Origin: an uncultured Erysipelotrichaceae bacterium
GTDB taxonomy: Bacteria > Bacillota_I > Bacilli_A > Erysipelotrichales > Erysipelotrichaceae
NCBI GenBank assembly: GCA_946537255.1
Contig: CAMNFS010000018.1
Span: 1 to 32,986, forward strand
DNA: 32,986 nucleotides
Direction of reading: 5' to 3'
Below the pieces are notes generated by a model, which did no database searches, had not been told where the DNA came from, and saw only the letters and a program-made list of their open reading frames with translations. Below are positions 4,483 to 29,442 of the stretch, piece by piece (the first letter of the stretch is position 1; each line of letters begins with the position of its first letter). A program made the translations under genes and the position numbers.

Positions 4483-5823
4483 TTATCCGGCAAAGCGGCC
4501 GTATTCCTCATTGCAGAAGATATGGGCATACCCGTCGGAATAGCTTCCGGATCCGCCGGCCGGGGCAGTGAGGGTAAATCCTGCCTTCTCTTCAAACAGC
4601 ATGACACAGTCGGATCCGCCGAACAGAAAGTATCCGACCTCATCTCCTTTTTCGATCCTTGCGCCAGGCTGGATTCTTTCGACAAAGTTGACGCTGGATA
4701 CCTGGCCCATGCCCACAGGAATCAGGGCCGCCATGCCGTGATCCGTTTCAATGAGCAGAACGCCGCGGGTTTCGCAGCACTGCCAGGAGAGGGAACTGGA
4801 GGAAAGCACATACAGCTGCTTCTGAGGATCCCAGTACACAACGCCTCCGACCGCGTTGGCGTAGGGAATGATATAGACCGCTTTTACGGTGCCGGATACC
4901 GGACTGTGATAGCGGTGATAGTCATCATAGTTCAGATAGGTGTGGGTCAGCCGGCCGCCATGAAACAAAGGCGCGTAGTCAGCGCCCGGTTCTCCCAGCA
5001 GCTGCTCAACGGTAACGAAGGTGGAGTCCTTGATCGTTACGCCCTGTTCCGTCTGAATCGGATCCGCTTCAAATCTTCCGTCCTGATCGATCTGCCAGAC
5101 ACCCTGAGGAAGCGAGTCGGCAGGGGAAACCACAACCGTGCTGTCATCCTTTCCGCTGACAGGCCGGACGGAAGCGCTGGAAAGCTTCCTGGAGAAAAAC
5201 TCATTGAAGGTTGTCCAGTGATCCCGGGATTCATACCACCCCTGGTCAAGGTGCCACGTGGGATCCTTTGCGAGCATGTCGCAGTATTCCGGTTTCCAGG
5301 ATGCTTTCGTATCGAGAAAATCCCGCCAGGAATTGTTGTAGGTGCTGAGCCAGGTGTAGACCGGCTTCAGATACTGCAGGGAAGGGTAGAACAGATCTTC
5401 CTTCTTGAGACACTCCAAGGGCTGATCGAAAAGCCAGTAGAGATAGAGAATGCTCTGATCGCACATGGTGGCGAAGTTCTTATACCGCTCATTCTGCATG
5501 ATGTTCCATGGCATGCAGGTTACGGAGTAGTCCAGAAAGGGATACAGTTCACTGAGACTCTGCACCGGATTGGTTTTTCGGTCCGGATTGATTTCTGCCG
5601 CTGCGGCGATGGACTGTTTCACAAGATCTTCCATTCCTTCGTTTTCCTCCAGCATGGTCCGGAAGGAAACGGAAGGAAGGTCTTTCTGAGCGAGCGACGC
5701 GGAACTCTGATTTTCCTGAGCAGGCGGTACACTGCCAGTGGGATAAAACGTAAAATTCAGGACGAGGCAGATCAAAGATACCGCTGTCAGTCCGATTACC
5801 CATTTTCTGTCTGAAGTTCTCAT
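4483..5823 (-). CDS. Membrane-anchored phosphatidylserine decarboxylase-like protein
   Basis: The protein has 446 residues. The N-terminus has one hydrophobic segment (about 9-27) that should anchor it with the catalytic part outside. The C-terminal half carries the marks of phosphatidylserine decarboxylases: FNEFFSRKL (206-214), SPADS with Asp236, HRYHSPVSG with His303 and His306, and near the end FGGSD (401-405), matching the LGST self-cleavage site whose Ser becomes the pyruvoyl group. Asp, His and Ser of the self-processing machinery are all kept. The family converts phosphatidylserine to phosphatidylethanolamine; some relatives act on other amino acids or peptides. The ~200-residue N-terminal extension has no recognised domain. 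GGAGGG precedes the start at good spacing. It lies 89 bases downstream of the nucleosidase gene in the same direction, possibly one transcript. The substrate is uncertain. Confidence 0.82.
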   Translation of the reverse strand: MRTSDRKWVIGLTAVSLICLVLNFTFYPTGSVPPAQENQSSASLAQKDLPSVSFRTMLEENEGMEDLVKQSIAAAAEINPDRKTNPVQSLSELYPFLDYSVTCMPWNIMQNERYKNFATMCDQSILYLYWLFDQPLECLKKEDLFYPSLQYLKPVYTWLSTYNNSWRDFLDTKASWKPEYCDMLAKDPTWHLDQGWYESRDHWTTFNEFFSRKLSSASVRPVSGKDDSTVVVSPADSLPQGVWQIDQDGRFEADPIQTEQGVTIKDSTFVTVEQLLGEPGADYAPLFHGGRLTHTYLNYDDYHRYHSPVSGTVKAVYIIPYANAVGGVVYWDPQKQLYVLSSSSLSWQCCETRGVLLIETDHGMAALIPVGMGQVSSVNFVERIQPGARIEKGDEVGYFLFGGSDCVMLFEEKAGFTLTAPAGGSGSYSDGYAHIFCNEEYGRFAG

Positions 5824-5912: not shown

Positions 5913-6707
5913 TTACTGTCCCCTGATCATCGCATGAATTACAGCAGCGCATTTTTCCGCTGCCTGAGCTTCAAAAAGCGGATAATCAGTGACTTCTTCT
6001 CCGCCGCCCGGTTTGTCGGAAATACAGCGGATGATCACAAAGGGAGTGCTGCTGAGCCAGCAGGCCTGGGCAATGGCAGCGCCCTCCATCTCACAGCACA
6101 TTCCGCCGAACTCGGAAAGGATCTTTTCCTTCTGCGCATCCGAGGAAATAAACTGATCGCCGGAACAGACGCGCCCTTCAAATACCTTTGTGTCTTCCGT
6201 ACTTTCCTGTACTGCCTTTACCGCCATGGCACGCAGGGATTCATCCGCCGGGAATGCCGCAAGACCGGTATAGGGGATCTCACCCTTCTGAAATCCGACC
6301 GGAGAAACATCAAAGTCGTGCTGAACCGCGTCGGTGGAAACGACAATGTCGCAGATATCGATCTCTTCATCAAGAGAGCCGGCGATTCCGGTATTGATGA
6401 TTTCCGTGCAGCCGAATTCATGGATCAGCGTATGCGCGCAGATCCCGGCGTTGACCTTGCCGACACCGCATTTTACAACCACCGCTTTCTGTCCTTCGAG
6501 GGTTCCTTCCCAGAACTCCATCTGGGCAATTTCCGTTTTTTTCGTAACCTTCATCGCTTCCTTCAGAGAACGGACTTCCTCATCCATCGCTCCGATAATA
6601 CCGATCTTCCGATCCGATACAGCCGGTTTTCCATTCCCGCATCCTGCCAGGATGACCATCGCCGCTGTCAAAAGAATCCGAATCAGTACTGCAGTCATTC
6701 GTCTCAT
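5913..6707 (-). CDS. mtnN: MTA/SAH nucleosidase with lipoprotein signal peptide
   Basis: Predicted 5'-methylthioadenosine/S-adenosylhomocysteine nucleosidase, which cleaves adenine from MTA, SAH or 5'-deoxyadenosine. The catalytic core reads IGIIGAMDEEV (Glu44 matching E. coli Glu12), CCEMEGAAIAQ (substrate-binding Glu) and IIRCISDKPGG (catalytic Asp), so the active site looks complete. Unusually the mature part is preceded by a lipoprotein signal: basic MRR, a hydrophobic stretch, and lipobox LAGC with Cys23. The start at 6707 is chosen for AAAGGAG 6-7 bases upstream; an in-frame ATG at 6740 has no SD and would bury the signal peptide. A TATAAT promoter lies just upstream. An outer-face nucleosidase would act on extracellular nucleosides, a salvage role that is inferred. 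Confidence 0.87.
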   Translation of the reverse strand: MRRMTAVLIRILLTAAMVILAGCGNGKPAVSDRKIGIIGAMDEEVRSLKEAMKVTKKTEIAQMEFWEGTLEGQKAVVVKCGVGKVNAGICAHTLIHEFGCTEIINTGIAGSLDEEIDICDIVVSTDAVQHDFDVSPVGFQKGEIPYTGLAAFPADESLRAMAVKAVQESTEDTKVFEGRVCSGDQFISSDAQKEKILSEFGGMCCEMEGAAIAQACWLSSTPFVIIRCISDKPGGGEEVTDYPLFEAQAAEKCAAVIHAMIRGQ

Positions 6708-6738
6708 ATACGCTCCTTTGTCTGAAACATCCGGATTC

Positions 6739-6768
6739 ATTATAAAGACCCGGCCGCAATCCTGACAG
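6739..6768 (-). promoter_or_regulatory. Promoter of the lipoprotein nucleosidase gene
   Basis: On the minus strand a perfect TATAAT (6744-6739) lies 18 bases after CTGTCA (6768-6763), a 4-of-6 match to TTGACA. The start codon is about 31 bases downstream of the -10 box. The -35 box touches the tail of the upstream terminator. Confidence 0.55.
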
Positions 6769-20773: not shown

Positions 20774-20816
20774 ATGAGAAGAGCCTCCTGCCGATGCGGG
20801 AGGTTTTCTCATTTTA
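20774..20816 (+). terminator. Rho-independent terminator after precursor B
   Basis: CCTCCTGC (20784-20791) and GCGGGAGG (20796-20803) pair with one wobble around CGAT, followed by TTTTCTCATTTT. Outer ATGAGAA and TTCTCAT can extend the stem. It lies about 50 bases after the precursor stop. Confidence 0.8.
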
Positions 20817-21022: not shown

Positions 21023-21030
21023 AATGATTG

Positions 21031-21963
21031 ATGAAACAGACCATTTGGCTTTCTGCCATTGTTTCGGCAGTGCTGCTGAGCGGATGCGCCGGAAGCTCTC
21101 AGCCGGTCAGTACACCGGACATCAAAAATGAAATAGAGAGCGGCGCAAAAGTCAGCTATCTTGGCCCGGCCGGTACCTATACCGAGGAGGCTGCGCAGTT
21201 TTTCTTTCCGGACGCGGGGGAGATGCGCCCGCAGAAAACGGTGGAGGAAGCGATCGCCGAGGCAGCTGATGGCCAGGCGGACTACGCGGTCATTCCTCAG
21301 GAAAATACAGTCGGCGGCGCTGTCATAGCCTATGTGGACGCACTGATCAAGGAACAGCGGATTCATGTGGTCGGAGAGGTGATTCTTCCGATCAGTCAGA
21401 CCCTCATGGGAGTACCTGGTGCAGAGCTCAGCGACATTCAGACAGTATGCTCGCATACCCAGGGACTCAGTCAGAGCGAAACATGGCGCAGAGAACATCT
21501 TCCCAATGCGGATGTGAAGGAAATGCCCAGTACTGCGGCAGCCGCGGAATATGTGGCACAGCAGAAGGACAGAACCATCGCGGCGGTGGCGGCGCCGGGG
21601 GCTGCGAAGCTGTATGGACTGGATGTCCTTGCGGAGAATGTTCAGATTACAATGGCCAATAAAACCCGCTTCTATGTACTTGCGAGAGGGAAACTCCCCG
21701 ATTCCGGGCACAGCCGGGCGGTGTTTGTGGCGGACTGCCGGGCAGACCGACTCGATGATCTTATGATTACCATTCATAATTCCGGTCTTGAGCTTGAAAC
21801 GGTACACGATCGTCCGGAGGGAAATGAACTTGGAGCCTACAGCTATATCATAGAAGTAAAAAATGAAGCCGGAATTACTGAGAAGCAGATTCAGACCGTG
21901 GAAAAGGAAGAGGGGGTGCGCTTTCTCGGGAGCTTCGCGGTCAGAGAGAAGAACGTACAATGA
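21031..21963 (+). CDS. Prephenate dehydratase-like lipoprotein
   Basis: Prephenate dehydratase turns prephenate into phenylpyruvate in phenylalanine synthesis. The catalytic part is recognisable: VSYLGPAGTYTEEAAQFF, YAVIPQENTVGGAV, GEVILPISQTLMG, VCSHTQGLSQ and NKTRFYVL, with the catalytic Thr-Arg-Phe kept. A C-terminal ACT-like region (HNSGLELETVHDRPEGNELG) matches the Phe-sensing domain in degenerate form. Unlike the usual cytosolic enzyme, the N-terminus is a lipoprotein signal with lipobox LLSGC (Cys19) and a short polar linker. ATG 21031 follows in-frame TTG 21028; the ribosome binding site is weak. The stop overlaps the acetyltransferase start by ATGA, so it is the first gene of a four-gene operon. 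An extracellular role is inferred from the signal only. Confidence 0.85.
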   Translation: MKQTIWLSAIVSAVLLSGCAGSSQPVSTPDIKNEIESGAKVSYLGPAGTYTEEAAQFFFPDAGEMRPQKTVEEAIAEAADGQADYAVIPQENTVGGAVIAYVDALIKEQRIHVVGEVILPISQTLMGVPGAELSDIQTVCSHTQGLSQSETWRREHLPNADVKEMPSTAAAAEYVAQQKDRTIAAVAAPGAAKLYGLDVLAENVQITMANKTRFYVLARGKLPDSGHSRAVFVADCRADRLDDLMITIHNSGLELETVHDRPEGNELGAYSYIIEVKNEAGITEKQIQTVEKEEGVRFLGSFAVREKNVQ

Positions 21964-22577
21964 CAGAAAAGGAAAAGATGATTCAGGGGCTTCTGTATGA
22001 TCCGTCTGACCCGGAACTGTACAGACTTCAGATCCGGGCAAGGCGTCTTGCAAGAGCGTACAACGCGATCGATGAGGAAGAGGCGGAAAAACGGGAAGCG
22101 GTACTGAAGGAACTGCTGTGTGAAAGTGAGAATATTCCGTATCTTGCCGGGCCGATCCACTTTGACTACGGGTTCAATACCCGGTTCGGGAAATACTGCT
22201 TCGCAAATTTCAACTTCATCTGTCTGGATGTGGCACCGATTACAATCGGAGAGAATGTGCTGATGGGGCCGAATGTGACACTGGCCGCGCCGATGCACCC
22301 GCTGATGGCAGAGGAGCGCAACATCCGCTTTCACAAAGACGGCTCGATCTATAATCTGGAATACGCGAAGCCGATTGTGATTGAAGACAGCTGCTGGCTG
22401 GCAGGCAATGTGACAGTCTGCGGCGGCGTAACCATTCATGAGGGTGCCGTGATCGGCGCCGGAAGTGTTGTGACAAGGGACATTCCGCCCCGCTGTATCG
22501 CGGCCGGCAGTCCCTGCCGCGTGATTCGTCCGTTGACGGAAGCGGATTATATGGAAAAGGAGAAACAGCTGGTATGA
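21960..22577 (+). CDS. maa: Maltose/galactoside-type O-acetyltransferase
   Basis: A left-handed beta-helix acetyltransferase of the LacA/Maa/NodL group, which moves acetyl from acetyl-CoA to sugar hydroxyls. It has the N-terminal helical MAC domain (EKEKMIQGLLYDPSDPEL), hexapeptide repeats (ITIGENVLMGPNVTL, IVIEDSCWLAGNVTV), the catalytic His113 in APMHPL, and the usual C-terminus AAGSPCRVIRPL. The length of 205 residues is typical. It overlaps both neighbours by four bases (ATGA), so it is translationally coupled to the dehydratase-like lipoprotein and the PTS permease. Acetylation of sugars that enter through that permease is the usual interpretation for such pairs. Confidence 0.93.
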   Translation: MTEKEKMIQGLLYDPSDPELYRLQIRARRLARAYNAIDEEEAEKREAVLKELLCESENIPYLAGPIHFDYGFNTRFGKYCFANFNFICLDVAPITIGENVLMGPNVTLAAPMHPLMAEERNIRFHKDGSIYNLEYAKPIVIEDSCWLAGNVTVCGGVTIHEGAVIGAGSVVTRDIPPRCIAAGSPCRVIRPLTEADYMEKEKQLV

Positions 22578-24256
22578 GTGAGGGGAAAAAGAAAGGATTT
22601 CTTCCGATTGATTTTGAGTTTCTCCAGAAACTCGGAAAGGCGCTGATGTCCGTGATCGCCGTCATGCCGGCGGCGGGGCTTGCGATCAGTCTCGGCAATG
22701 TGATCATGATGATCTTTCCATCCGGTCTCGGAAATCAGATCGGATCGGTGGTTTCCAGTCTTGGCTGGGGTGTCATTACCAATCTGCATATTCTGTTCGC
22801 GGCCGCGATCGGCGGATCCTGGACGAAGGACCGGGCCGGGGGAGCGTTCGCGGCAGTCATCTGCTTTATTCTCATCAATATTCTGACCGGCTCGATGCTT
22901 GGAGTCAGCGCGGAAATGCTGGAAACAGAAGGGGCAGTGACGCATACCTTCTTTGGAAAGGCAATTCCTGTCAGTGATTATTTCGTCAGTGTGCTCGGCG
23001 CTCCGGCACTCAACATGGGTGTCTTTGTCGGAATCATCTCCGGCTTTGTCGGAGCGGCTGCCTATAACAGGTACTATAATTTCCGCGGCCTTCCCGCGGC
23101 ACTTTCCTTCTTCAACGGCAAGCGCTTTGTGCCGCTGGTATGCATGGCCTATTCCGTTCTGGCAGCTCTTGTGATTTCGCTTTTCTGGCCGGAGGTTCAG
23201 GGTCTGATCAACGCGTTCGGCATCTGGATCGCCAATTCCTCCTCAACCTCGCCGATTCTGGCTCCGTTTATCTATGGAATGCTGGAACGACTGCTTCTTC
23301 CGTTCGGGCTTCATCACATGCTGACGATCCCGATGAACTATACCTCCTTCGGAGGCACCTATATCATCGCGACCGGCGCGGATGCCGGGAAGGCGGTCTA
23401 TGGCCAGGATCCGCTCTGGCTTGCCTGGGTGACGGATCTTATCAACTATAAGCACGCTGGGAATATGGCTGCCTATCAGAACCTTCTGACCACCGTGACC
23501 CCGGCCCGTTTCAAAGCCGGACAGATGATCGGCGCGAGCGGCCTTCTGCTTGGTGTGGCCCTTGCCATGTACCGGCAGACGGAACCGCAGTACCGGAAAA
23601 AAATGCACTCCATGTTTCTTTCCACGGCAGCGGCAGTTTTCCTGACCGGTGTGACGGAGCCGATCGAATTCATGTTCATGTTCTGCGCAGTACCGCTGTA
23701 TGTCGTCTACGCCATCCTGCAGGGGATTGCGTTCGCGATGGCGGGTGTGATTCATCTGCGGGTTCATTCCTTCGGCAATCTGGAACTGCTCTCCCGCGTT
23801 CCTCTGGCTGTGGAAGCGGGACTGACGGGTGATCTGATCAATTTTGTGATCTGCACGGCTGTCTTTTTCGGGGTCGGATATTTTACCGCCTTCTATATGA
23901 TCAAGATGTTCAACTTTGCTACACCGGGGAGAAACGGAAACATTCCGGAAGAGATGTCGGAGAAAGCTCAGCCTCAGGATTCACCTTCCGCATCCGTTTC
24001 TTCTGAGGAAAAGAAACCGGCCGGTTCTCAGGCGGAGCGCATCATCGCTTTGCTTGGCGGCAGAGACAACATCATCGATGTGGACGCATGCATGACAAGA
24101 CTGCGGGTAACGGTAAAGGATCCTGCCGCGGTAGCGGAGCTTTCAGACTGGAAGGCGGAAGGAGCGCTTGGCCTCATTAAAAAGGACAACGGCGTGCAGG
24201 CAGTATACGGACCGAAGGCGGATATCCTGAAATCGGATATTCAGGATATTCTATGA
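22574..24256 (+). CDS. PTS sugar permease EIICB (glucose/maltose/N-acetylglucosamine superfamily)
   Basis: A phosphotransferase-system permease that imports and phosphorylates a sugar. Residues ~15-450 form the multi-spanning EIIC domain, including AVMPAAGLAISLGNVI, the substrate-loop region LLLPFGLHHMLTIPMNYTSF and GVTEPIEFMFMF with the conserved Glu. A Ser/Pro/Lys linker leads to the C-terminal EIIB domain, whose phospho-Cys is Cys506 in VDACMTRLRVTV. There is no EIIA domain, so a separate EIIA must serve it. It overlaps the acetyltransferase and the next gene by ATGA on both sides. The HHMLTIP motif suits the maltose/glucose branch (MalX or PtsG-like), but substrate is uncertain. Confidence 0.93.
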   Translation: MSEGKKKGFLPIDFEFLQKLGKALMSVIAVMPAAGLAISLGNVIMMIFPSGLGNQIGSVVSSLGWGVITNLHILFAAAIGGSWTKDRAGGAFAAVICFILINILTGSMLGVSAEMLETEGAVTHTFFGKAIPVSDYFVSVLGAPALNMGVFVGIISGFVGAAAYNRYYNFRGLPAALSFFNGKRFVPLVCMAYSVLAALVISLFWPEVQGLINAFGIWIANSSSTSPILAPFIYGMLERLLLPFGLHHMLTIPMNYTSFGGTYIIATGADAGKAVYGQDPLWLAWVTDLINYKHAGNMAAYQNLLTTVTPARFKAGQMIGASGLLLGVALAMYRQTEPQYRKKMHSMFLSTAAAVFLTGVTEPIEFMFMFCAVPLYVVYAILQGIAFAMAGVIHLRVHSFGNLELLSRVPLAVEAGLTGDLINFVICTAVFFGVGYFTAFYMIKMFNFATPGRNGNIPEEMSEKAQPQDSPSASVSSEEKKPAGSQAERIIALLGGRDNIIDVDACMTRLRVTVKDPAAVAELSDWKAEGALGLIKKDNGVQAVYGPKADILKSDIQDIL

Positions 24257-25125
24257 AGCTGCTTACATTGAATCTGCACAGTCACGACCGCAGCTTTGAA
24301 AAGTCTCATCTGCAGGCGCGGCTTGAGATCCTGGCGGAATTCATACGAAGTCAGAAACCGGACGTGATTGCCATGCAGGAATGCAGTCAGGAAAAGGACG
24401 CCCCGATAATGAAAACACCCGGGCAGGGATTTGTGCCGCTGAAGGAACAGATGCCGCTGCGGGAAGGAAATGCCGCCGCCCTGCTCTGCGAGCTGCTTCG
24501 GGAAGAGGATGGTTTCTGGAACTGGAGCTGGTGCGGTGTCAAACTCGGTTATGACATCTTTGAGGAAGGGCTTGCGCTGTTCAGCCGGATTCCGATGACA
24601 TCGGTTTCGGATTACTGGATTTCCACAGTCCGGGACAGATCGAACTGGAAAAGCAGAAAGGCGCTTGTGGCTCAGCTGGAAAATCATCTCTGTGTCTGTG
24701 ATGTGCATATGGGCTGGTGGAATGATGAAGAAGAATGTTTCCATGATCAGATGAACCGGCTTCAGAATATTCTTTCCGGAAAAGAACAGGTGTTTCTGAT
24801 GGGAGATTTCAATTCTCCGTCCGATGTCAGGGGAGAAGGCTATGACCGGATGAAGGAACTTGGCTGGATCGATACCTATGACCTGGCACAGGAAAAGGAC
24901 AGCGGGATCACCGTACCGGGAGAAATTGACGGATGGCGGGACGGAAAGAAGAACGGGAAGCGTCTGGATTATATCTGGACAGACCGCCTATGTTCTTTCA
25001 AACGCTCCCTTACGGTATTCAGCGGTATCAATGAACCGGTGATCTCAGATCATTTCGGCGTTCTTCTGGATGGATTCTCACCGGAGGATGCGCGTGATTC
25101 CAATCTCAGAGAAGAAAAGATATAA
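24253..25125 (+). CDS. Endonuclease/exonuclease/phosphatase family protein
   Basis: An EEP-superfamily metal-dependent phosphodiesterase of 290 residues. Visible active-site pieces are LTLNLHS (Asn7), IAMQECSQ (Glu43), CVCDVHMGWW (His), LMGDFNSP (Asp and Asn) and VISDHFGVL (Asp-His pair). It has no signal peptide. It is the last gene of the overlapping operon with dehydratase, acetyltransferase and PTS permease. The substrate could be a sugar phosphate, a phospholipid head group or nucleic acid; the operon context favours a metabolic substrate, but this is inference. Confidence 0.88.
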   Translation: MKLLTLNLHSHDRSFEKSHLQARLEILAEFIRSQKPDVIAMQECSQEKDAPIMKTPGQGFVPLKEQMPLREGNAAALLCELLREEDGFWNWSWCGVKLGYDIFEEGLALFSRIPMTSVSDYWISTVRDRSNWKSRKALVAQLENHLCVCDVHMGWWNDEEECFHDQMNRLQNILSGKEQVFLMGDFNSPSDVRGEGYDRMKELGWIDTYDLAQEKDSGITVPGEIDGWRDGKKNGKRLDYIWTDRLCSFKRSLTVFSGINEPVISDHFGVLLDGFSPEDARDSNLREEKI

Positions 25126-25212
25126 GGTATGTTTTTCATTGTAATTTAGGGTTTTCTTCAGAATAACTTCACACTGCCGGAGTACATTTATGACTGTCAG
25201 ATGGAGGTCATT

Positions 25213-26691
25213 ATGACGAAGAAAACATTCAGAACCTGTCTGAAGCCGGCAGTATCCGGACTGCTTGCGGCTGCGCTGCTGATGGGATGCTCTGCATCGA
25301 ATGAATCAGCGGAATCGAAAGAGACAGAAAAAACAGAAGAAAAAGCACCGGAGATGAATTCTGAGCCGATGGAAAAACCGGATGGCGGAAAGCCGGAAGG
25401 AACTCCTCCTGAAAAACCGGATGGACAGGGAGGCCCGGGCGGCGGTCCCGGCGGAGCACCGGGCGGAGGGTCTTCGGATATCACTTATAAAGGCGCTGCG
25501 GAGATCACTTCCAAGACTGAGGAAAAGGATCAGACTTACGCATCCTCGTCCGCGGATGAAAGCGCTCTGATTATTTCCGGTACGGAAGAAGTCACCATCA
25601 CCAATCCTACCGTAACCAAGAGCGGAGATTCCGATGGCGGTGACAGCTGCAGCTTCTATGGCGTGAACGCGGCGGTTCTTGTCAAGGACGGCGCCAGTGC
25701 CGTGATCACCGGCGGTACGATTACCACCGGTGCCGAGGGAGCCAACGGTGTCTTCTCCTATGGCGGTAACGGCGCTCAGAACGGAGCCAGCGGCGATGGG
25801 ACAACGGTGACAGTCCGGGATACTCATATTACAACGACCGGCAACGGGTCCGGCGGAATCATGACAACCGGCGGAGGCGTTACCCTTGCCGAAAACCTCA
25901 CGGTTGAAACCAGCGGACGTTCTTCCGCGGCGATCCGTACGGACCGGGGCGGCGGAACGGTTACTGTGAATGGCGGTTCCTATACCACAGGCGGTCTTGG
26001 TTCCCCGGTGATTTACTCGACCGCGGATGTTACCGTCAGTGATGCCGTACTGGTTTCGAATCTTTCCGAAGGCGTATGCATTGAGGGAAAGAATTCCATT
26101 ACCCTGAATCAGTGTGATCTGACTGCGTCCAACACCGACCGCAACGGCAACGCGTCCTTTCTGGATACGATTATGATTTACCAGTCCATGTCCGGTGACG
26201 CGGACTCCGGAACCTCGTCCTTTACGATGAACGGCGGCAGTCTTACCAGCAAGAGCGGTCACGTATTCCATGTGACCAATACCAACGCCGTTATCTCGCT
26301 CAGCGATGTCAGGATTGTCAATGAAGACAGCGGGAATATTCTTCTTTCGGTCTGTGCGGACGGCTGGAGCGGAGCGGCGAACAAAGCGGAATTCAACGCT
26401 TCGAAGCAGACGCTTGCGGGAACGATTCTGGTCGGAGAGGATTCCGAACTGACCCTGAATCTGAAGGACGGATCTTCCTTCACCGGCGCGATCAGCGGTA
26501 ATATCACCGACGCCTCCGGCAATACAGTTTCCTCGGAAGTCGGAACCGTATCGGTCAGCCTGGATGAAAGCAGCACCTGGACGCTCACGGAAGATACATG
26601 GATTACTTCCTTCAGCGGCAGCGCGTCCTCCATCATCACCAATGGACATACGCTGTATGTAAACGGAACCGCGCTGAGCGGAACCAGATAG
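25213..26691 (+). CDS. Beta-helix surface lipoprotein, carbohydrate-binding-domain-like
   Basis: The protein has 492 residues. A signal peptide ends in lipobox LLMGC (Cys26), followed by a Glu/Lys/Pro-rich stretch and a flexible Gly/Pro linker (GGPGGGPGGAPGGG). The rest is built of short Thr/Ser/Gly/Val-rich strands with repeated patterns such as VTITNPTVTKSGD, AVITGGTITTG, VTVNGGSYTTGG and FTMNGGSLTSKSG, typical of right-handed parallel beta-helices. Such lipoproteins are large-surface adhesins or glycan binders in gut Bacillota. No catalytic motif was seen. ATG 25213 lies 5 bases after GGAGG; ATG 25201 precedes that site. A perfect terminator follows. Confidence 0.85.
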   Translation: MTKKTFRTCLKPAVSGLLAAALLMGCSASNESAESKETEKTEEKAPEMNSEPMEKPDGGKPEGTPPEKPDGQGGPGGGPGGAPGGGSSDITYKGAAEITSKTEEKDQTYASSSADESALIISGTEEVTITNPTVTKSGDSDGGDSCSFYGVNAAVLVKDGASAVITGGTITTGAEGANGVFSYGGNGAQNGASGDGTTVTVRDTHITTTGNGSGGIMTTGGGVTLAENLTVETSGRSSAAIRTDRGGGTVTVNGGSYTTGGLGSPVIYSTADVTVSDAVLVSNLSEGVCIEGKNSITLNQCDLTASNTDRNGNASFLDTIMIYQSMSGDADSGTSSFTMNGGSLTSKSGHVFHVTNTNAVISLSDVRIVNEDSGNILLSVCADGWSGAANKAEFNASKQTLAGTILVGEDSELTLNLKDGSSFTGAISGNITDASGNTVSSEVGTVSVSLDESSTWTLTEDTWITSFSGSASSIITNGHTLYVNGTALSGTR

Positions 26692-27600: not shown

Positions 27601-27641
27601 TTGAAAGTCTGCTTTTTCAACGGATAATCGAAGGATATAAT
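27601..27641 (+). promoter_or_regulatory. Promoter region of the MATE-ATPase fusion gene
   Basis: TTGAAA (27601-27606) and GATAAT (27623-27628) stand 16 bases apart, a good promoter. A second -10-like TATAAT lies at 27636-27641. The start codon is at 27676. Confidence 0.6.
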
Positions 27642-27649
27642 GCACGGTT

Positions 27650-27664
27650 GTATGCAGTGCATAC
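27650..27664. promoter_or_regulatory. 15-bp perfect palindrome, candidate operator of the MATE gene
   Basis: GTATGCA-G-TGCATAC is a perfect inverted repeat. It begins 8 bases after the TATAAT and ends immediately before the AGGAGGA ribosome binding site at 27664-27670. The position suits a repressor site at or after the transcription start, or an RNA hairpin controlling ribosome access. Confidence 0.5.
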
Positions 27665-27675
27665 AGGAGGAACCC

Positions 27676-29442
27676 ATGGATTTCAGATTAGACGATGCCA
27701 GGCTTCTGAAGGACTTATACTTCAAACTGCTTCCGATACAGATCCTTCTGGCAATGGTGGGAGCGGTGAACGGAATCATATCCGGTCTGTTCGCGACAAA
27801 CTTTGTCGGATCCCACGCAATGACCGCGATCGGACTGTTCACGCCGGTTTTTACATTTCTCGGCGCGGTGATGGCGGTTCTGATCGGAGGCTCTGCGCTG
27901 TTATGCGGAAAGTACATGGGAAACAATCATGTGGAAAAATCCCAGAGTATCTTCTCTGTCAACTTCATTATTTCCTTTGTTCTGTCCCTGATCATCAGCG
28001 TTCTGCTGGTGATTGCGGTATGGAGCGGATTTACAGGGACCATGACGCAGGATCCCATGGTTCTAGCGTCATTCAACAGATATCTGCTGTATATCGCGCC
28101 TGGTATTTTCCCGATGCTGGCAAGCGGACAGCTCGGCGCGTTTCTGTCTCTTGAGAATCAGAGCCGCCGCAATACGGTCTCCGGCATTGCCTTCATCGGC
28201 GTCAATACGCTGCTGCACTTTGTTTTTGTGGCAGTGCTTCATATGGAAGCGGCAGGGCTTGCCCTTGCCTCAACCATCGGCGCCTGGATCTTCATGTGCA
28301 TGCTCGGACAGTATTTCTTCACTTCCAGATCTTCTCTGAAGTTTTCCTTCAGGGATTATGCGCTTTCCGATATCCGCGATATCTTCGTCATCGGCTATCC
28401 GGGCGCGCTTGGCAATCTCTATCAGACGGTCCGGGCCCTTCTGCTCAACGGCATGATTCAAAGAGGCATCGGTTCTGCCGGTATTTCCGCCTTTACGACG
28501 GTCAATTCCCTGCTGGGAGTATTCTGGGCGGTACCCGGGGGAATGCTGACGGTATCGAGAATGCTGATAGGAATCAGTATCGGAGAAGAAGACCGCAAGT
28601 CACTGATTGATGTCATCCGGATCTGTTTCTTCCGGTGCGTACCGATTCAGACCTTCATTTCTGTTCTGATCGCGGTTCTTGCGGTGCCGTTTACAATGAT
28701 GTATTACCAGAACCCGGCGGAACCGGTATTTCAGATGACTGTGGACGGCTTCCGGATTCTTCCCTTCGCGATGCCGTTTGCGATCATTGTCACCAATATG
28801 GTCTGCTATGCGCAGGCATCGGAAAAGAATATCCTCGTGCATGTTCTATCTGTTCTTGACGGGTGGATCAACATCTGCGCACTTTCAGGTATTCTGATTC
28901 CTTTCTTCGGCATGAACGGAGTGTACTGGGCAAATGTGATCAATGGCCTGCTCTGTGTTCTGGTCATTCTGATCTACGCGACAGCGGAAGGCAGGAAATT
29001 CCCGCGCTCCGTGGAGGAACTTATGGCCATACCGAAGTCCTTCGGAGTCAATGAGGATGAGCGGGTTGACATCGCGGTTCATAATCTCGATGAAGTGGTG
29101 AAGGTATCACAGACCGTCGGTGATTTCTGCAGGGAACGGGGAATTGACCGGCGCCGCAGCTTCTTCGCTTCGCTTGCCCTTGAGGAAATGGCAGGATATA
29201 TTGTCGCCAATCGGTTTCATGGAAAACCTCATACAATTGATATCCGTGTGACTCACAAGGAGGATGATGTGATTCTGCGCATCAAGGATGACTGTGAACC
29301 ATTCAATCCGGAGGATATGGTGGAGCTGGTTGATCCGGATGATCCGGTAAAGAACATGGGAATCAAGGCAGTCTACCGATCTGCCAAAAGCGTGCAGTAT
29401 CAGAATATTCTGGGACTGAATGTACTGACCATGCGCATCTGA
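27676..29442 (+). CDS. MATE family transporter fused to a histidine-kinase-type ATPase-like domain
   Basis: The protein has 588 residues. The first ~450 form a 12-helix MATE exporter, which uses cation gradients to expel drugs or metabolites; typical pieces are LLPIQILLAMVGAVNGIISGLF, IAPGIFPMLASGQLGAFLSLENQSRRNT and GYPGALGNLYQTVRALLLNG. The last ~130 residues are an RsbW/HATPase-like domain with SFFASLALEEMAGYIVANRF (N-box), ILRIKDDCEPFNP (G1-like) and a final MGIKAVYRSAKSVQYQNILG. At the N-box the usual Mg-binding Asn after LEEMAG is Tyr, so ATP binding may be lost. ATG 27676 follows AGGAGGA at 5 bases; the longer frame from 27640 crosses the palindrome. The fused domain may sense or regulate; this is inference. 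Confidence 0.9.
   Translation: MDFRLDDARLLKDLYFKLLPIQILLAMVGAVNGIISGLFATNFVGSHAMTAIGLFTPVFTFLGAVMAVLIGGSALLCGKYMGNNHVEKSQSIFSVNFIISFVLSLIISVLLVIAVWSGFTGTMTQDPMVLASFNRYLLYIAPGIFPMLASGQLGAFLSLENQSRRNTVSGIAFIGVNTLLHFVFVAVLHMEAAGLALASTIGAWIFMCMLGQYFFTSRSSLKFSFRDYALSDIRDIFVIGYPGALGNLYQTVRALLLNGMIQRGIGSAGISAFTTVNSLLGVFWAVPGGMLTVSRMLIGISIGEEDRKSLIDVIRICFFRCVPIQTFISVLIAVLAVPFTMMYYQNPAEPVFQMTVDGFRILPFAMPFAIIVTNMVCYAQASEKNILVHVLSVLDGWINICALSGILIPFFGMNGVYWANVINGLLCVLVILIYATAEGRKFPRSVEELMAIPKSFGVNEDERVDIAVHNLDEVVKVSQTVGDFCRERGIDRRRSFFASLALEEMAGYIVANRFHGKPHTIDIRVTHKEDDVILRIKDDCEPFNPEDMVELVDPDDPVKNMGIKAVYRSAKSVQYQNILGLNVLTMRI

Follow-up and report, generated by a model that had tools for sequence, protein, structure and literature searches.

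Prephenate dehydratases inside and outside the cell

Prephenate dehydratase (PDT) of the PheA type is viewed as an intracellular enzyme that carries out a step in the synthesis of phenylalanine. Dehydratases beyond the cytoplasm are represented by PheC, the periplasmic cyclohexadienyl dehydratase (CDT) of Pseudomonas aeruginosa, and by exported fusions of chorismate mutase with CDT (PMC10520331); that 2023 work did not settle what extracytoplasmic enzymes of the shikimate pathway do. The PDT effector EqPdt, from a powdery mildew, acts outside the fungal cell, is not inhibited by phenylalanine (Phe) and carries NSRP in place of the ESRP motif (PMC11980547). GqqA of Komagataeibacter (PDB 7alz, 7am0) is reported to be an acyl-homoserine lactone (AHL) acylase that retains PDT activity (PMC8192741). 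We found no report of a secreted PheA-type PDT in bacteria, or of a PDT–phosphatase fusion, in the open literature searched, and the exported PheA-type form presented here appears to be undescribed so far.

The window that we analysed, a stretch of 32,986 nucleotides, corresponds to contig C18; its genome, 2.44 Mb in all, carries two PDT genes. One of these, on the plus strand of the window at 21031–21963, encodes a 310-residue PDT-family protein predicted to be exported as a lipoprotein. It resembles PheA-type PDTs (E. coli PheA; PDB 3mwb, 6vh5, 2qmx, 2qmw and 4lub) in its fold, its order of PDT and ACT domains and its catalytic residues. Unlike them, this protein and its exported relatives form a separate clade, are mostly predicted to be lipid-anchored, have lost the ESRP and GALV motifs and, in one family of bacteria, are often fused to secreted phosphatases. 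With PheC and the chorismate mutase–CDT fusions they would share an extracytoplasmic dehydratase, freedom from Phe feedback, a place beside a cytosolic PheA and a proneness to fusion (PMC10520331), whereas PheC descends from solute-binding proteins, is joined to chorismate mutase rather than to phosphatases and belongs to Gram-negative hosts. The exported PDTs would thus be an independent, Gram-positive case from another protein family. EqPdt is likewise a PDT-family enzyme outside the cell with an altered ESRP (PMC11980547), but it is fungal, lacks a classical signal peptide and enters plant cells, whereas signal peptides and the sequence HDRP mark the bacterial clade.

A predicted surface lipoprotein beside a cytosolic PheA

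The gene is intact, running from an ATG at 21031 to a stop codon at 21961–21963, with an in-frame alternative start (TTG) at 21028. Its product consists of a signal peptide, MKQTIWLSAIVSAVLLSG, followed by Cys19 (together 21031–21087), a short linker, the PDT domain and an ACT-like C-terminus (21712–21948). The lipobox LLSG/C (residues 15–19) closes the first hydrophobic stretch, as in bacterial lipoproteins, and Cys19 is predicted to be lipidated. Residues 41–220 (21151–21690) match the PDT catalytic domain PF00800 over model positions 1–179 of 181 (E 3.8e-55; 186.9 bits against a curated cut-off of 25.2), the sole family matched by the protein in the Pfam search.

A signal is present in all 53 exported members that we examined, which comprise the relatives found in a contig scan, same-genus genomes and a Lachnospirales sample. 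The best N-terminal hydropathy over 12 residues is 1.8–3.5 in 53/53 of them, compared with at most 1.2 in 21 cytosolic PDTs. About 40 of the 53 are predicted lipoproteins and the remainder look like signal-peptidase-I substrates; in nearly all relatives the signal stands just before the PDT domain, and in one (L030) before a fused HAD domain. The product of the other PDT gene of the genome (L002, L097) is 284 residues long, lacks a signal and retains both ESRP and the Gly loop; the gene immediately precedes aroB, and aroC follows beyond it. A second PDT was found in 28 of 33 genomes. The original prediction, made from the letters of the window, had proposed a lipoprotein start, which the lipobox and the 53 signals bear out, and the relocation of a PDT-family enzyme to the surface, which the cytosolic paralogue and the signals support; the genome search that it suggested for a second, cytosolic pheA found one.

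Clear membership of PF00800 would also suit an ordinary housekeeping PheA with a spurious N-terminal extension, a reading that we consider scarcely credible. It conflicts with the second, cytosolic pheA beside aroB and aroC, with a signal that is found in all relatives and is absent from cytosolic homologues, and with the loss of the feedback site. Because a cytosolic pheA lies elsewhere in the genome and the export signal is conserved in more than 50 relatives, the gene is neither a sole pheA without membrane processing nor the product of a false start codon. The protein also departs from a Phe-regulated biosynthetic PheA in lacking ESRP and GALV, in its predicted localisation, with a signal rather than a cytosolic start, and in narrowly missing the NCBIfam prephenate dehydratase equivalog NF008865 (209.7 bits against a cut-off of 219).

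Catalytic domain and fold

In E. coli PheA, the catalytic residues reportedly identified in a study by Zhang of 2000, which PMC8192741 cites, are N160, S208, Q215 and T278, together with the TRF motif. Our alignment to E. coli PheA (taken from NC_000913) pairs N92, S141, H142, Q148, T212, R213 and F214 of the window protein with N160, S208, H209, Q215, T278, R279 and F280, and these residues are identical in 52/52 exported sequences. They fall in the blocks P89-Q90-E91-N92-T93-V94-G95 (21295–21315), S141-H142-T143-Q144...Q148 (21451–21474; E. coli S208, H209, Q211 and Q215) and T212-R213-F214, the TRF motif (21664–21672). The expectation that TRF and the other conserved blocks are kept holds for the catalytic blocks and fails for the regulatory ACT block. 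Within the PxEN block, Q90 (position of E. coli I158) is invariant in the exported clade, as opposed to I, L or V in 39/39 cytosolic PDTs, a replacement that could change the substrate; S167 is a second clade-specific invariant change in the catalytic domain.

The AlphaFold2 model of the window protein (pLDDT 87.4, pTM 0.79) has solved PDTs as its best PDB matches, with TM of about 0.8. GqqA, at 0.80, shares this PDT-family fold, but it is only 25% identical and falls outside the exported clade. Binding proteins match the model weakly (TM of about 0.3), and this, with PF00800 as the only family, sets the protein apart from PheC-type CDTs and their descent from solute-binding proteins.

A binding role, raised in the original prediction, would make the protein a binding or sensing lipoprotein whose PDT fold serves uptake or signalling merely by holding an aromatic ligand. 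The predicted lipid anchor, a fold of the type II binding-protein kind and the weak structural matches are in keeping with this, yet the catalytic residues, needless for binding alone, are invariant in 52/52 sequences and the structural match to PDTs is far closer. Across the wider exported clade no neighbour is conserved beyond close relatives, and no ABC transporter, chemoreceptor or kinase was found in such a position; the proteins are joined to hydrolases, not to transporters. A pure binding role thus becomes the less likely one, and we rate it as unlikely.

Loss of the phenylalanine feedback site

The Phe-binding ESRP is replaced by HDRP in the window protein (21805–21816). At the position of E329, His is present in 52/52 exported sequences, compared with Glu in 35/39 cytosolic ones; the S330 position is Asp in 48/52 exported sequences, and the G309 position, Gly in 39/39 cytosolic PDTs, is Asn, Ser, Asp or Glu in most exported ones. 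The Phe-binding motif GALV is lost as well, and reads DRLD in the window protein. Alignments with the Phe-bound structures 3mwb and 2qmx display the same replacement. By these alignments the Phe-feedback site is gone from the exported PDTs, and because of this loss the enzyme is predicted not to be shut off by phenylalanine. Such a feedback-free state would be expected of an extracellular enzyme.

The ACT domain is also the more diverged one: the window protein and the cytosolic PheA of its own genome agree at 62/178 positions (35%) of the PDT domain and at 10/79 (13%) of the ACT domain, whereas between that cytosolic PheA and E. coli PheA the identity is 33% in the PDT domain and 35% in the ACT domain. 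The ACT domain of the exported clade has gained conserved residues of its own, namely C236 (41/52), D242, D243, E254, H259 and D260.

A clade of dehydratases with export signals in gut bacteria

One scan of genome contigs returned 33 relatives, 52–72% identical over the best segment; they belong to rumen and gut Firmicutes that include Solobacterium, Lachnospiraceae, Erysipelotrichaceae, Oscillospiraceae and Christensenella. The gene is also carried by Lachnospiraceae bacterium JC7 (L011). An exported PDT was found in 11/392 genomes of the Lachnospirales sample, and in the query genome alone in a phylum-wide sample of 398 genomes. A tree of 52 exported sequences and 39 cytosolic PDTs is split between the two by a branch with a support of 100 (SH-aLRT, quick search) and a length of 1.28 changes per column; because of this long stem, the exact attachment of the clade is unsure. 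Within it, two subclades are marked by GTYTEEA and GTY[TS]QEA.

The members turn up in scattered families, in each of which they are rare, a pattern suggesting that the exported PDT spread horizontally among gut bacteria. For close pairs, dN/dS is 0.07–0.21, the mark of purifying selection. That selection maintains an exported, feedback-free clade across dozens of species from the gut would imply that prephenate, arogenate or a relative is available outside the cell and worth processing there.

Two apparent further forms were set aside. One (G449 C117) is a degenerate, weak match. The other, in a Lachnospiraceae genome (G440 C187; L179:1291-2976, minus strand), is a cytosolic PDT with ESRP, and is an odd fusion in its own right, its 561 residues joining domains that look by eye like the folate enzymes FolB and FolK to the PDT.

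Fusion with secreted phosphatases

Within the family of genome G450, which belongs to the rumen Clostridia, 37/300 genomes carry an exported PDT, and 11 of 38 exported-PDT loci are fusions, 9 of them with secreted phosphatases. A HAD domain precedes the PDT in three (L030, L214 and L217) and follows it in two (L215 and L218), and an Agp-like glucose-1-phosphatase follows it in four (L178 and L219–L221; E 6.5e-68 to a glucose-1-phosphatase in the PDB). The PDT is otherwise fused to a propeller-like protein, homologous to the gene just upstream of another exported PDT (L026), in L216, and to a domain of no assigned kind in L213. At three further loci a HAD gene adjoins that of the PDT, co-directionally in G1351 and G1257 and convergently in G1514. 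About 0.06 phosphatase-associated loci would be expected by chance, compared with the 9 fused and 3 adjacent among 38, although the relatedness of the loci lowers the number of independent events.

Three fusion architectures imply at least three separate joinings; parsimony on the fusion tree gives 7 label changes, a number not forced by well-supported branches. As raw counts that ignore kinship, HAD occurs in 30/37 genomes of the family with an exported PDT and in 4/20 without, and acid phosphatase in 21/37 and 3/20, respectively. We know of no other case in which Agp or a secreted HAD is joined to a prephenate dehydratase. The recurring association appeared in this rumen family alone, and even there the PDT stands alone at most loci. 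The window protein is itself a stand-alone PDT: the domains of Agp glucose-1-phosphatase and secreted HAD hydrolases (1nt4, 3ntl and 4ovy) that are fused to the PDT in relatives are absent from its locus, which has no HAD or histidine acid phosphatase domain. A single secreted Agp-like phosphatase (L225) is encoded at another place in the window genome.

Another apparent fusion, L212 (open frame of 731 residues), proved to be merely a long upstream open frame. The same family holds further combinations of phosphatase domains, of the HAD–HAP and HAD–HAD kinds, and a genome with an exported PDT (G1477) encodes a secreted triple fusion of 1,092 residues in the order HAD, Agp-like phosphatase, HAD (L227:1026-4304).

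Substrate and possible role

We infer the localisation, activity, substrate and role of the exported PDT from these comparisons. The protein would be secreted by the Sec route, receive its lipid at Cys19 and stay anchored to the outside of the membrane, where its active site would most likely convert prephenate to phenylpyruvate, or arogenate to phenylalanine, by decarboxylation and dehydration. The charged metabolites that escape from rumen microbes by lysis or overflow might in this way become products fit for import, alongside the work of the secreted sugar-phosphate phosphatases to which the same protein is joined in related bacteria. The company of exported phosphatases, a nucleosidase and a deoxyribosyltransferase would fit such salvage, the weakest step of the scheme. 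An extracytoplasmic, membrane-anchored and feedback-free dehydratase of the PDT family, serving surface salvage of leaked metabolites beside phosphatases, is the reading that we put forward, with confidence that stands about midway.

The supply of substrate bears on this reading. The only chorismate mutase found in the window genome has 105 residues and no signal, and no exported one was found among the readable chorismate mutases of these genomes, which are short or fused to cytosolic domains and lack signals. Prephenate or arogenate would consequently have to come from other cells. In acid, prephenate also decays to phenylpyruvate by itself, so that an enzyme would be less needed.

An exported enzyme that keeps the scaffold and catalytic residues of a PDT but has taken on a new substrate, possibly a product of the fused phosphatases, is a possibility that we hold tentatively and think rather improbable. 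It would account for the stem of 1.28, for the invariant Q90 and S167, for the rebuilt ACT domain (C236 in 41/52, D242-D243 and H259-D260), for repeated phosphatase fusion in several architectures and for the failure to find an exported chorismate mutase that would supply prephenate; GqqA, with its cleavage of acyl-homoserine lactones, offers a precedent (PMC8192741). Against it, the E. coli catalytic residues are all unchanged, the L-G-G pattern after EN occurs also in the Chlorobium PDT 2qmx, and the PDT is alone at most loci of the phosphatase family. In a more specific form, to which we likewise give limited credence, rumen and gut Firmicutes would hold an undescribed extracytoplasmic system in which a repurposed PDT and secreted phosphatases (PDT-HAD, HAD-PDT and PDT-Agp, accompanied by HAD-HAP fusions) process a single chain of extracellular substrates, perhaps one without prephenate, with a new ligand for the rebuilt ACT domain. 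The repeated joining with secreted phosphatases would be a direct lead to the substrate.

A different use, proposed for chorismate mutases that are secreted and for the PDT of powdery mildew, is that of an effector, which would deplete or produce aromatic metabolites so as to influence neighbours or a host. EqPdt is active outside the fungal cell with its ESRP likewise changed (PMC11980547), but most members of the bacterial clade are predicted to be lipid-anchored, the bacteria that carry them are commensals of rumen and gut, and no exported chorismate mutase partner was found, which makes an effector highly improbable here.

Neighbouring genes in the window

The PDT gene is followed on the same strand by genes for a maltose/galactoside-type O-acetyltransferase (21960–22577), a glucose-family PTS permease IIBC (22574–24256; TIGR02003, above cut-off) and an endonuclease/exonuclease/phosphatase (EEP) family protein with no signal (24253–25125). 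The overlapping operon with acetyltransferase and PTS permease described in the original prediction is real: the ATGA that joins the first two genes (21960–21963) is repeated down the row at 22574 and 24253. As a clue to function, the sugar context did not hold up. No PTS or EEP neighbour was found at the other exported-PDT loci examined, where the sole acetyltransferase match (L028) is 37% identical and more than 5 kb away, and related Erysipelotrichales genomes have the PTS–EEP pair with no PDT; we therefore reject the sugar operon as functional evidence. The arrangement is peculiar to the window genome.

Upstream of the PDT gene, a terminator-like hairpin (20780–20807, plus strand) is consistent with the gene heading its own unit, although the excess of such hairpins is weak (11 found against 5.0 expected by chance). 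No RNA leader such as a T-box was found: neither the window nor any of six related loci matched Rfam.

The window also encodes the lipoprotein nucleosidase that the original prediction had paired with the PDT, and this second case of a cytosolic enzyme family with a predicted place at the surface is real too: the MTA/SAH nucleosidase-type protein at 5913–6740 (minus strand) matches PF01048 (E 2e-56) and has a lipoprotein signal with the lipobox VILAGC. Adjoining it at 4483–5823 (minus strand) is a protein of the phosphatidylserine decarboxylase family (PF02666) with a long extra N-terminus and an N-terminal hydrophobic segment. Two plus-strand genes were also noted: a 496-residue lipoprotein (25201–26691; LLMGC) has a Gly/Pro-rich linker and a repeat-like body and matches no Pfam or NCBIfam family, and a MATE transporter (27640–29442) ends, in an unusual architecture, in a HATPase_c_2 (anti-sigma-like kinase) domain. 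At other exported-PDT loci, the gene directly upstream of the PDT encodes a secreted propeller-like protein (L026:1654-2592) or, in a likely operon, a lipoprotein of the nucleoside 2-deoxyribosyltransferase family (L167:1224-1895, minus strand).
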